DNA from: Bacteroidota bacterium
GTDB lineage: Bacteria; Bacteroidota; Bacteroidia; Palsa-948
Assembly (NCBI GenBank): GCA_016213405.1
Contig: JACRAM010000071.1
Location: 62,001 to 126,000 of the forward strand
Reading direction: 5' to 3'
Length of the DNA: 64,000 bases
This document shows positions 4,243 through 31,397 of this stretch, in pieces. Numbering within the stretch: the stretch's first letter is position 1; every line of letters begins with the position of its first letter. Below the pieces are notes generated by a model. That model worked only from the letters and a program-made list of their open reading frames with translations. It had not been told where the DNA came from and ran no database searches. Position numbers and translations under genes: made by a program.

Positions 4243-4258
4243 AGGCGGGAACTATAAT

Positions 4259-4475
4259 TACACCGTTTGGAACGGTATTGCTTCCGTTACGAACTGTATT
4301 GCCTTCGTTACGAACCATATTTGCACCGTTATGATTCGTATTTACTCCGTTATGATTCCAACCCTTTCCGTTATGGTTCCAGACCTTGTAGAGATGATTC
4401 CAAACCTTGCCTTTATGGTTCCAAACCTTGAGGTTACCGTTCCAAACCTTGCAGTTATGGTTCCAAAAACATCAT
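4259..4475. repeat. Tandem array, 10 units, exact 21-bp period
   Basis: A GTT-type anchor (GTTTGGAAC, GTTACGAAC, GTTATGATTCC, GTTATGGTTCC and variants) recurs at 4265, 4286, 4307, 4328, 4349, 4370, 4391, 4412, 4433 and 4454, always 21 bp apart with no indel. The sequence drifts from a GTTnnnAAC palindrome at the left to GTTATGGTTCCAAACCTT at the right. One frame on each strand stays open through all units (heptads like VMVPNLE on +, VWNHNGK on -), but no good start codon precedes either. The array fills the gap between two convergent genes. Confidence 0.85.
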
Positions 4476-17749: not shown

Positions 17750-19008
17750 ATTTCTTTTCTAAGTATTTCTCCAAACCTGAAAATATCCTCAAATGAATTA
17801 TACAGCGGAACGGGTGCACAGCGGATTACGTTTGGTTCACGCCAGTCAGCAATCACACCTTCATTTATCAATTTGTTAAATAATTCTTTTCCCCTACCGT
17901 GCGCAATGATACTCAATTGACATCCTCTTTCTTTTGGCGTAATTATTTCCTGCTTGTGAATTCCTGCTTGTGCATTAATTTCTTGAATGATAAACTCCAA
18001 ATATCCTGTTAGCTTTTTACTTTTCTCTGCGAGCGTATCTATTCCCGCTTCCATAAAAATATCGAGAGCCGCTTTATGTGCCGCCATTGAAAGAACAGAC
18101 GCGTTACTCACCTGCCATGCTTCCGCAGTAGGAATCGGCACAAAGTTTTTTTCCATTTTAAAACGCTTCTCTTTATTATATCCCCACCACCCGGCAAACA
18201 TCGGTAAATCTTTATTGTGATGTTTTTCATGAATGAATGCTCCGGCAACATTTCCCGGTCCTGAATTCAGATATTTATAAGAACACCAGCAGGCAAAATC
18301 CACATTCCAGTTGTGAAGATTCATTTTAATATTTCCTGCCGCATGCGCCAGATCAAAACCAACCCTTGCTCCTGCTTTGTGCCCCGCTTCGGTGATTGAT
18401 TTCATGTCGAACGCCTGTCCGTTGTAATAATTCACTCCTCCTATGAAAACCAGCGCGAGTTCGTTTTTATTTTTTTCGATGGCAGATAAAACATCTTCGT
18501 GGCGGATACAGTGTTCGCCTGCTCTTGGCGCTACTTCAATGATTGCATTTTCAGGATTATACCCGTGAAATTTTACCTGTGATTCAATTGCGTACTGATC
18601 GGATGGAAATGCTTTTGCTTCGCATAGAATTTTATATCGCTCTTTTTCCGGACGATAAAATGACACAAACAAAAAATGAATGTTGCTCGTCAGCTGGTTC
18701 ATTGCTACTACTTCACTCTGTTTCGCTCCAACAATTTTCGAAAGCGATTCAGCCAGAGTTTCATGATAGGAAAACCAAGGATTCTTCGCTTTGAAATGTC
18801 CTTCCACTCCAAACTTTGCCCAGACATCCAATTCATGCTGAATATATTTTGAAGCGGACTTCGGCTGAAGCCCGAGAGAATTGCCTGTGAAGTAAATCAC
18901 ATTTTTCCCTTTATGCTTCGGAAATAAAAATTTCGAACGGAATTTTTTCAGCGGATCTTTTTTATCCTGTGCTTGGGCGAATTGAAGTGCGTTTTCGTAT
19001 TTCATCAT
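17746..19008 (-). CDS. kynU: Kynureninase
   Basis: A 420-residue PLP enzyme that cleaves L-kynurenine or 3-hydroxykynurenine to anthranilate or 3-hydroxyanthranilate plus alanine, in tryptophan breakdown or de novo NAD synthesis. Landmarks are 'IYFTGNSLGLQPKSA', 'FDLAHAAGN' and 'CWCSYKYLNSGPG', the last holding the PLP lysine, then 'FAGWWGY'. Length is normal for the family. No other kynurenine-pathway gene is in the window. A -7 box (minus strand 19034-19027) lies 18 nt upstream of the start and abuts that of hemL. Confidence 0.95.
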   Translation of the reverse strand: MMKYENALQFAQAQDKKDPLKKFRSKFLFPKHKGKNVIYFTGNSLGLQPKSASKYIQHELDVWAKFGVEGHFKAKNPWFSYHETLAESLSKIVGAKQSEVVAMNQLTSNIHFLFVSFYRPEKERYKILCEAKAFPSDQYAIESQVKFHGYNPENAIIEVAPRAGEHCIRHEDVLSAIEKNKNELALVFIGGVNYYNGQAFDMKSITEAGHKAGARVGFDLAHAAGNIKMNLHNWNVDFACWCSYKYLNSGPGNVAGAFIHEKHHNKDLPMFAGWWGYNKEKRFKMEKNFVPIPTAEAWQVSNASVLSMAAHKAALDIFMEAGIDTLAEKSKKLTGYLEFIIQEINAQAGIHKQEIITPKERGCQLSIIAHGRGKELFNKLINEGVIADWREPNVIRCAPVPLYNSFEDIFRFGEILRKEI

Positions 19009-29112: not shown

Positions 29113-29174
29113 TCTACCTTTGGCAGGCGGGTTTTTACATTCTTATTTTTTATTTGTATCTTTATTTCTTCAAA

Positions 29175-30338
29175 ATGAGAACAAAGATATTTTTCTCCAT
29201 TTTCCTTTCAGGGATTTTGCTTGCTGAACCAAATGCGCATGGACAAAATTCTCCCACTACCGATAATCCTCCAAAACAGAAAACCCAGACCGAACGCGGT
29301 TTCTTTGGGAAGAAAAAAACCGGACAAAAAACTGTAAAGCAAAAAGATTCATTCCGCACTAAAAACGGGAAGGATAAATACACCGTTCAGAAAGATTCCT
29401 TCAAAGAAAAAAAACAAAAACAAAAATCAAAAACAGGTGATTCATTTTCTTCAAATACCCAGACAAAAGATTATGGTCAAAAATCAAAAGGCAAACGAAC
29501 CAAGCGAGGAAAAAATAATGTGAAAGGAAGTAACCTGAATGATGCGTTCGCTTCTAATACACAGACAAAAGATTACGGAGAAAAGTCAAAAGGCAAACGA
29601 ACCAAGCGAGGAAAAAATAATGTGAAAGGAAGTAACCTGAATGATGCGTTTGCTTCAAACACACAAACCAAAGATTATGGAGAAAAGTCAAAAGGCAAAC
29701 GAACCAAGCGCGGAAAAAATAATATTAAAGGAAGCAATCTTGATGACGCATTTGCATCCAATACAAAGACAAAAAATTATGGCGACAAGGCAAGCGGCAA
29801 GCGGGCGAGAAAAATGAAGAAAGGAAAAATGAAAAGCGATGATACGGGCGATGCCTTTGCTTCGAATACCAAAGTAAAGGACTACGGTGAAAAATCAAAA
29901 GGCAGGCGGATCAAAGGAGGAAGAAAAAATAAAATAAAAGGAGAAGATGTGAGTTCGGGAAGTTTTACAGCCAATAACAACACCTCCATGAGCTATGGAG
30001 AGAAAGCCAATGGCAAGAAGCTGAAAAAATTCAGGAAGAGGAAAATAGAAGATAATAAGGATAATGGAACCGATGCATTTGCATCCAACGTAAAGCTGAA
30101 CAAAAACTCTCCTTCCAATACTTCAAAAGGCAGACACAAAAACCCGAATGTAGGCACGGGCAAAAAGAAGAAAAAGTTCCATATCTTTAAATTCCATTTC
30201 AAATCAAGACAGGAAAAGAAAATGGAAAAAGAAAATGCCAAAGAGAGCGCAAGTTTCAGCAACACCCGCGAAATGAAAAAAGCAATGAAGAAACAAAAGA
30301 AGAAAAAAGAATACGGGCTGGGATTGCCGCAGAAATGA
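29175..30338 (+). CDS. Secreted Lys-rich protein with 34-residue repeats
   Basis: A 387-residue exported protein (signal MRTKIFFSIFLSGILLAEPN). The mature chain is extremely basic. From 29439 it contains about seven repeats of 34-36 residues with the pattern DAFASNT-x-TKDYGEKSKGK-R. The first three repeats are nearly identical 102-bp units (29439, 29541, 29643), the rest diverged. The C-terminus is a Lys run ending in 'EYGLGLPQK'. I recognise no family. The charge suggests binding to anionic polymers (nucleic acid, LPS or polysaccharide), which is inference. A copy of the last codons recurs at 30803-30834, indicating a former paralogue downstream. Confidence 0.7.
   Translation: MRTKIFFSIFLSGILLAEPNAHGQNSPTTDNPPKQKTQTERGFFGKKKTGQKTVKQKDSFRTKNGKDKYTVQKDSFKEKKQKQKSKTGDSFSSNTQTKDYGQKSKGKRTKRGKNNVKGSNLNDAFASNTQTKDYGEKSKGKRTKRGKNNVKGSNLNDAFASNTQTKDYGEKSKGKRTKRGKNNIKGSNLDDAFASNTKTKNYGDKASGKRARKMKKGKMKSDDTGDAFASNTKVKDYGEKSKGRRIKGGRKNKIKGEDVSSGSFTANNNTSMSYGEKANGKKLKKFRKRKIEDNKDNGTDAFASNVKLNKNSPSNTSKGRHKNPNVGTGKKKKKFHIFKFHFKSRQEKKMEKENAKESASFSNTREMKKAMKKQKKKKEYGLGLPQK
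29439..29744 (+). repeat. Three near-identical 102-bp tandem repeats
   Basis: Units start at 29439, 29541 and 29643. Units 1 and 2 share almost every base after the first 30 nt. They encode the 34-residue basic repeat and are long enough to allow unit gain or loss by recombination. Confidence 0.85.
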
Positions 30339-30457: not shown

Positions 30458-30748
30458 ATGAAAAGTTTGGCTGACATAAAAAATATCCTGACACGGAACA
30501 AGCAACAGTTGTATGACAAGTACGGAGTAATGGCGCTTGCCGTTTTTGGCTCTTACGGAAGAGGGCAACAGCGCGAAGACAGCGATGTGGATATATTGGT
30601 AGAATTTAAAAAACCCATAGGGCTTGAATTCATTGACCTTGCCACCGAACTGGAAAAAATCCTGAACAAAAAAGTTGACCTGGTTTCTAAAAACGGGATA
30701 AAAGCCCAGTACATGCGCGAAATAGAACAGGATATTAACTATGTCTAA
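30458..30748 (+). CDS. mntA: MntA-like minimal nucleotidyltransferase (antitoxin)
   Basis: A 96-residue MNT-fold protein. 'AVFGSYGRGQQREDSDVDIL' carries the GSx10DxD catalytic motif of minimal nucleotidyltransferases. In MntA-HepT modules the MNT protein adenylylates and silences the HEPN ribonuclease HepT. The following hepT frame starts inside this gene (overlap of 8 bp), as in intact modules, but hepT is broken (see 30741). The active-site residues of MntA look intact. If the toxin is gone, this gene may be a relic or may act on another partner. Confidence 0.85.
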   Translation: MKSLADIKNILTRNKQQLYDKYGVMALAVFGSYGRGQQREDSDVDILVEFKKPIGLEFIDLATELEKILNKKVDLVSKNGIKAQYMREIEQDINYV

Positions 30749-30854
30749 GCGCAATCCTAAACTTTTGCTTGCCGATATTATGGAAGCGGCAGAAAAAATA
30801 AAAAACAAAAGAAGAAAAAAGAATACGGGCTGGGGCTACCTGAACATTAATTAA
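30741..30854 (+). pseudogene. hepT: Truncated hepT fused out of frame to a paralogue tail
   Basis: The frame begins MSKRNPKLLLADIMEAAEKI, the usual HepT (HEPN/DUF86) start. After about 20 codons it runs into a 32-bp sequence identical to 30291-30322, the 3' end of the Lys-rich repeat gene, in another frame, and stops at 30854. The RX4-6H ribonuclease motif and most of the helical bundle are missing. An intact HepT would be roughly 110-140 residues. Confidence 0.75.
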
Positions 30855-31166: not shown

Positions 31167-31355
31167 GCACGATTTATTCTGTTTATTGTAGAATTAATTC
31201 TACAGGAAATAGATTTTTTTCTCTTTTATTTAGAATTTTTTCTACACAGAATAGAATGTTTTCTGCTTTTTTTAGAATTTGTTCTGCTTATAGTAGAAGT
31301 TTTTCTACTTTATTTAGAATTTATTCTACAATATGTAGAATGGTTTTTGTTTTTC
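31167..31355. promoter_or_regulatory. Nine-unit array of palindromic sites, exact 21-bp period (candidate operator)
   Basis: Units start at 31167, 31188, 31209, 31230, 31251, 31272, 31293, 31314 and 31335. The core is TTAGAATTTATTCTAC-like; GTAGAATTAATTCTAC at 31188 is a perfect palindrome. The flanking five bases of each unit are AT-rich and not conserved. Twenty-one base pairs is two helical turns, so all sites face the same side. The array fills the upstream region of the HTH gene. Confidence 0.8.
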
Positions 31356-31360
31356 ATTCA

Positions 31361-31397
31361 AAAAAAAGCATTCCGGGTATAATCGGAACGCCTTTTT
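31361..31397. terminator. Bidirectional terminator-like hairpin
   Basis: An A run, GCATTCCG, an 8-nt loop region, CGGAACGC and a T run form a hairpin flanked by A and T tracts on either side. It would terminate the minus-strand gene at 31440-31958 before the array. Confidence 0.6.

Follow-up and report, generated by a model that had tools for sequence, protein, structure and literature searches.

Nine phased 21-bp sites upstream of a small helix-turn-helix gene: a possible member of an undescribed class of regulatory DNA in Bacteroidota

What are nine similar sites, set exactly 21 bp apart, doing directly in front of a gene for a 99-residue helix-turn-helix (HTH) protein? This question is raised by a short intergenic region in the window, which here means the whole 64,000-nt stretch of a Bacteroidota bacterium contig that was analysed. 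An earlier note on this DNA had claimed nine sites at an indel-free 21-bp spacing, a strong core in seven of them with one perfect copy, and free linker bases, and each of these claims was borne out. The registers start at 31167, 31188, 31209, 31230, 31251, 31272, 31293, 31314 and 31335, a constant step of 21 bp without an indel. The seven inner registers have both arms of the core, some with mismatches, and the two outer ones (31167 and 31335) have one good half-site each; the copy at 31188-31203, GTAGAATTAATTCTAC, is perfectly palindromic. The array matches itself at 0.61, 0.69 and 0.60 for lags of 21, 42 and 63 bp, and the sum of 1.90 is far beyond a first-order Markov null (1.06 +/- 0.10, maximum 1.53 in 10,000). 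Of the 21 columns, 8 do not vary across the eight full units and 6 look random. Conservation is more uneven among columns than under equal rates (p=0.001), the conserved columns are clustered (p=0.011) and the consensus is dyad-symmetric (p=0.002). The TAGAAn4TTCTA core forms an array at this one location in the genome. Isolated copies of the site elsewhere in the genome were not commoner than those of a reversed-pattern control (15 vs 24), which ruled out a regulon of the window HTH protein at other loci.

The features of the window and of the related loci are collected in Table 1. Along the direction of transcription the order is X1, terminator, array and HTH gene. X1 is a co-directional gene whose putative terminator borders the array on one side; on the other side, the array ends about 12 bp from the ATG of the HTH gene. 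The terminator was absent from the minus-strand output of a pattern scan, and similar stems were seen behind other X1 genes. Since it lies before the array, transcription of X1 probably stops short of the repeats, as judged from the sequence. No promoter was evident in the array itself. X1 had no convincing family in Pfam, NCBIfam, PADLOC or PHROG and no relative in the PDB, and its AlphaFold2 model (pLDDT 50) was too poor for use. The array that follows X1 genes is followed in turn by an HTH gene, by a gene termed D82 (nine loci) or by neither, and seven X1 loci have the array and no binder gene behind it. D82 is a separate 82-aa family without a Pfam match (L276:2277-2525 and eight homologues) and is possibly another DNA-binding family. 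X1 genes also occur in tandem, and some X1 domains carry longer C-terminal regions (L276:360-1334 and L290, Ig-like in the latter). The X proteins in general have no apparent signal peptide, and some have Ig- or fn3-like ends.

Table 1. Coordinates of the arrays, genes and terminator discussed in the text.
Feature	Position	Strand	Remarks
21-bp array, nine registers	31167..31355	.	core TAGAAn4-5TTCTA; 5' of the minus-strand HTH gene
HTH protein, 99 aa	30863..31162	-	Cro/C1-type with C-terminal helix 70-98; proposed array binder
Putative intrinsic terminator of X1	31360..31392	-	GGCGTTCCGATTATACCCGGAATGC then T8; read from sequence
X1, 172 aa	31440..31958	-	predicted all-helical, Pro-rich tail; 18/22 homologues with 21-bp array just 3'
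Second window array, 21-bp, ~10-11 units	4247..4470	.	core GGTTCCAAACC; between two convergent genes, no HTH neighbour
X2, 190 aa	4483..5055	-	stop codon abuts second window array
rpoB-rpoC spacer array, own genome	L139:4966-5128		~five clear 21-bp units, AGATGnnnCATCT
22- and 44-bp-period arrays (G332)	L313:3408-3676 and 18623-18883		
22- and 44-bp-period array (Mediterranea sp.)	L184:4821-5095		

The candidate binder was compared with known folds. AlphaFold2 (mean pLDDT 90.9) places the HTH helices at residues 5-15, 20-26 and 31-38, followed by the C-terminal helix. Foldseek matched the model to SinR, DdrO and C.BclI (E about 3e-3 to 7e-3, probability 1.00), profile matches were to SinR and HigA, and the protein scored below cut-off for Pfam HTH_26 and HTH_3. 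The HTH that had been claimed for this protein is thus present with a Cro/C1 fold, and the C-terminal coiled coil claimed with it stands as a modelled helix that is likely to be one. PADLOC gave no convincing match for the HTH protein, X1 or X2, and a defence role was rejected on this ground. Beside the module, positions 30458-30854 encode an MNT-type nucleotidyltransferase and then a 37-codon ORF resembling a truncated HEPN partner; the two may once have formed a toxin-antitoxin pair that has since decayed. Further along, positions 29154-30338 encode a 394-aa protein in which a 102-bp (34-aa) coding repeat occurs about 3.6 times.

By profile search, the genome has seven members of this HTH family (E below 1e-25), on 7 contigs, and a 21/42-bp array lies immediately upstream of each. 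Three generic XRE genes, weak matches in the same search, are all without one. With about 17 arrays in 727 kb, seven of seven is unlikely by chance; even if 5% of genes were array-adjacent, the probability would be 0.05^7, or about 1e-9. The cores of the paralogues are wholly different, with TAGAAn4TTCTA in the window, CCAGATnnnATCTGG in the C66 paralogue and a 42-bp alternating unit in C11 as examples. Pairs of array and HTH gene were also seen in Marinifilum (three loci), uncultured Bacteroidales, a Flammeovirgaceae contig and other Bacteroidota, and in genome G332 arrays with periods of 22/44 bp lie upstream of HTH genes from the same family. Array-free homologues are common in Bacteroidota (111 of 135 matches). 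On the tree of the family the array-bearing members are clustered but scattered, and the array trait needs 12 changes, at least three of them forced by well-supported branches, which rules out a single clade. Palindromy was likewise ruled out as a defining feature of the class, since it is significant in 4 of 18 HTH-linked arrays; the window has a palindromic site upstream of its own HTH gene, and the sister loci are not generally palindromic.

The two groups of homologues differ in the recognition helix, which the model places at residues 31-38. It is conserved as R-x-N-V-Y-x-I-F in the array-free proteins and hypervariable in the array-bearing ones (n=21), in which conservation of the remaining domain is roughly what it is elsewhere. 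Dividing helix identity by the identity of the remaining domain gives 0.49 for array-bearing members vs 0.85 +/- 0.09 for array-free members, and none of 2000 subsets was equally low. When identity outside the helix is 60-70%, that of the helix is 0.31 with an array and 0.65 without. A hypervariable recognition helix in the presence of an array is the pattern expected from diversified binding specificity. Array similarity correlates with helix similarity weakly (r=0.16, p=0.008), its correlation with the remainder of the domain is just as strong, and few pairs carry the correlation. Similar helices go with similar arrays in L172/L189 and L039/L193; L191 is a counter-example, with a helix near those of L172 and L189 and a different array. 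The earlier note had asked whether relatives of the HTH gene always have such an array upstream with a covarying core. Within the genome the array is always there, outside it is often missing, and covariation of core and helix is detectable but weak. The underlying claim that the array and the adjacent HTH gene belong together is supported by the seven paralogues and by the diversified helix, against the many array-free homologues.

Our preferred reading of the sequence, with a probability of about 0.58, is that the array serves the adjacent HTH gene as its own multi-site operator, bound cooperatively and used for autoregulation. The HTH protein would occupy one dyad per 21-bp unit, as a dimer. 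As 21 bp corresponds to two helical turns, all sites would face the same side of the DNA with neighbours within contact, and contacts through the C-terminal helices could make occupancy strongly cooperative and nearly all-or-none. The window array fills the gap from the X1 terminator to the ATG, so its occupancy should block transcription of the HTH gene; the protein would then repress its own gene by covering the promoter region. In a number of sister loci the last array unit is followed closely by TAnnTTTG, the Bacteroidota -7 promoter element, and there binding might lead to repression or activation. A strict TAnnTTTG lies between array and ATG at 6 of 20 loci, 22-76 bp before the ATG (a seventh match, at L038, overlaps the array end), which would make the array an upstream element compatible with either sign of control. 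With a separate core and a separate recognition helix for every paralogue, cross-talk between the modules would not be expected. Arrays that lack an HTH neighbour, such as the one in the rpoB-rpoC spacer, fall outside the operator account.

Those arrays are numerous. Periodicity scans of a 727-kb sample of the genome detected 17 arrays with a 21/42 period, which extrapolates to about 85 per genome; in the genome most have 8-13 units and the longest 17. They are mostly outside long ORFs, and of the 18 tandem arrays located there 16 show this period; other periods belong mostly to coding repeats. A coding origin (21 bp being 7 codons) was ruled out by this location and by the existence of 22- and 44-bp arrays. 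Within the sample, the window array is the only one next to an HTH-family gene, and most arrays are without such a neighbour. The earlier note had named arrays with unrelated neighbours, and also array-free homologues of the HTH gene, as evidence against its proposal, and the abundance of both does count against it in part. With many arrays lacking an HTH neighbour and only some being palindromic, "one HTH, one array" is an incomplete description.

These counts are the basis of the main rival to the operator account, in which the arrays are a genome-wide class phased at two helical turns, the main job of which is chromosome organisation, insulation or anchoring of X-type proteins, with the HTH/coiled-coil protein and D82 as exchangeable binders in modules of X1, array and binder. 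Such a role would suit the association of X1 genes with a 3' array, which holds for 18 of 22 whether or not a binder gene lies behind. It would also suit the further uncharacterised families X2 to X8, which abut arrays as well (for X2, the homologue at L105:3665-4183 likewise carries one on its 3' side), and the presence of an array in the rpoB-rpoC spacer. Related genomes with X1/HTH arrays carry additional arrays, and nine other genomes, sampled at 20 kb each, had none. However, the arrays share no common sequence, they have no known reader protein and many have neither an X gene nor a binder gene as a neighbour; one common binding protein for all of them was ruled out by the unrelated cores. 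We regard this explanation as unlikely overall, if the strongest of the alternatives.

A mutational origin was judged improbable. The arrays would here be minisatellites, produced by tandem duplication of 21 bp at many intergenic sites, and the link to HTH genes would be secondary or a matter of selective retention. Units that are unrelated from locus to locus fit this well, as do higher-order repeats of 42 and 105 bp, in which stepwise duplication is visible. No array was found in the rpoB-rpoC spacer of six congeners, the three spacers read being short, so an array can arise within a genus, again in line with duplication. Neutral duplication nevertheless explains neither the fixed 21-bp period (22/44 in G332), nor invariant columns beside saturated ones, nor the association with all seven HTH genes and with X1. 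That the arrays act as RNA, for example as the repeat antitoxins of type III toxin-antitoxin systems, is very improbable: a repeat array beside the gene for a protein of some 170 aa recalls the ToxIN layout and small hairpins could form from palindromic units, but the repeat lies 3' of X1 and past a terminator instead of 5' of a toxin gene with the terminator between them, X1 appears to terminate ahead of it, the window array had no match in Rfam, arrays occur on either side of genes and also inside an operon, and strict 21- or 22-bp phasing with free linkers suits DNA geometry better.

Returning to the operator reading and what surrounds it, the recurring layout has the look of a class of regulatory DNA not described before. 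We put at even odds a broader statement, namely that certain Bacteroidota lineages carry genome-wide arrays at two-helical-turn spacing (about 85 here, mostly 8-13 units, period 21/42 or 22/44) with their own cores and fast turnover, many of them coupled to small binders (the HTH/coiled-coil protein, perhaps D82) and to helical partners (X1 and others), and that these form mutually orthogonal DNA-address modules. Should each HTH protein bind its own array only, the paralogues would be a natural library of matched binder and array pairs, diversified in their recognition helices and strongly cooperative. Such a library would help to decipher how HTH proteins recognise DNA and could supply orthogonal switches ready for use. 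Should the wider class serve a single function, the arrays, together with families such as X1 and D82 that have no Pfam match, would be a part of Bacteroidota genomes that recurs, evolves fast and has been overlooked. No description of such a class was found in the open-access literature, of which coverage was incomplete.

Several known systems resemble parts of this arrangement. Plasmid centromere and partition arrays, such as those of pSK1 Par, pSK41 parC and F sopC, share the layout of a binder gene with a tandem array upstream, and pSK1 Par is itself an HTH and coiled-coil protein whose array lies upstream of the binder gene. The arrays described here, in contrast, are chromosomal and multicopy, with no NTPase seen. 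Plasmid or phage carriage was unsupported: nusA and infB lie in the window, the 7 copies are on 7 contigs and there was one weak plasmid match only.

The XRE/Cro-C1 autoregulators, for which a large-scale motif survey is available (PMC12565409), are represented by SinR, C.BclI and DdrO. They share with the window the HTH fold, a palindromic site upstream of their own gene and dimer-type recognition. The differences are that about nine phased sites are present here instead of one to a few, that sites and recognition helices are hypervariable among the paralogues of one genome, and that the C-terminal helix stands alone after the HTH. BldC of Streptomyces forms cooperative multimers on DNA direct repeats (PMC5859096); the window protein is likewise a small HTH protein and is proposed to multimerise cooperatively on its repeated, phased sites. 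BldC is MerR-like, has no coiled coil and serves a regulon, whereas the window HTH has a Cro/C1 fold and its 21-bp units are at a single locus. BrickBuilt of Porphyromonas gingivalis, a minisatellite/MITE with a 23-nt unit (PMC4596501), likewise consists of tandem units about two helical turns long and is found at many intergenic places in a Bacteroidota genome. It is one repeat family inside a MITE, whereas the unit sequence here differs at each locus: both window arrays occur once in the genome (the second one included), and the other arrays differ from one another. The parts are already familiar; their combination, with many two-turn arrays per genome, each with its own core, diversified binders and unnamed protein families, was not met with in the open-access literature searched.
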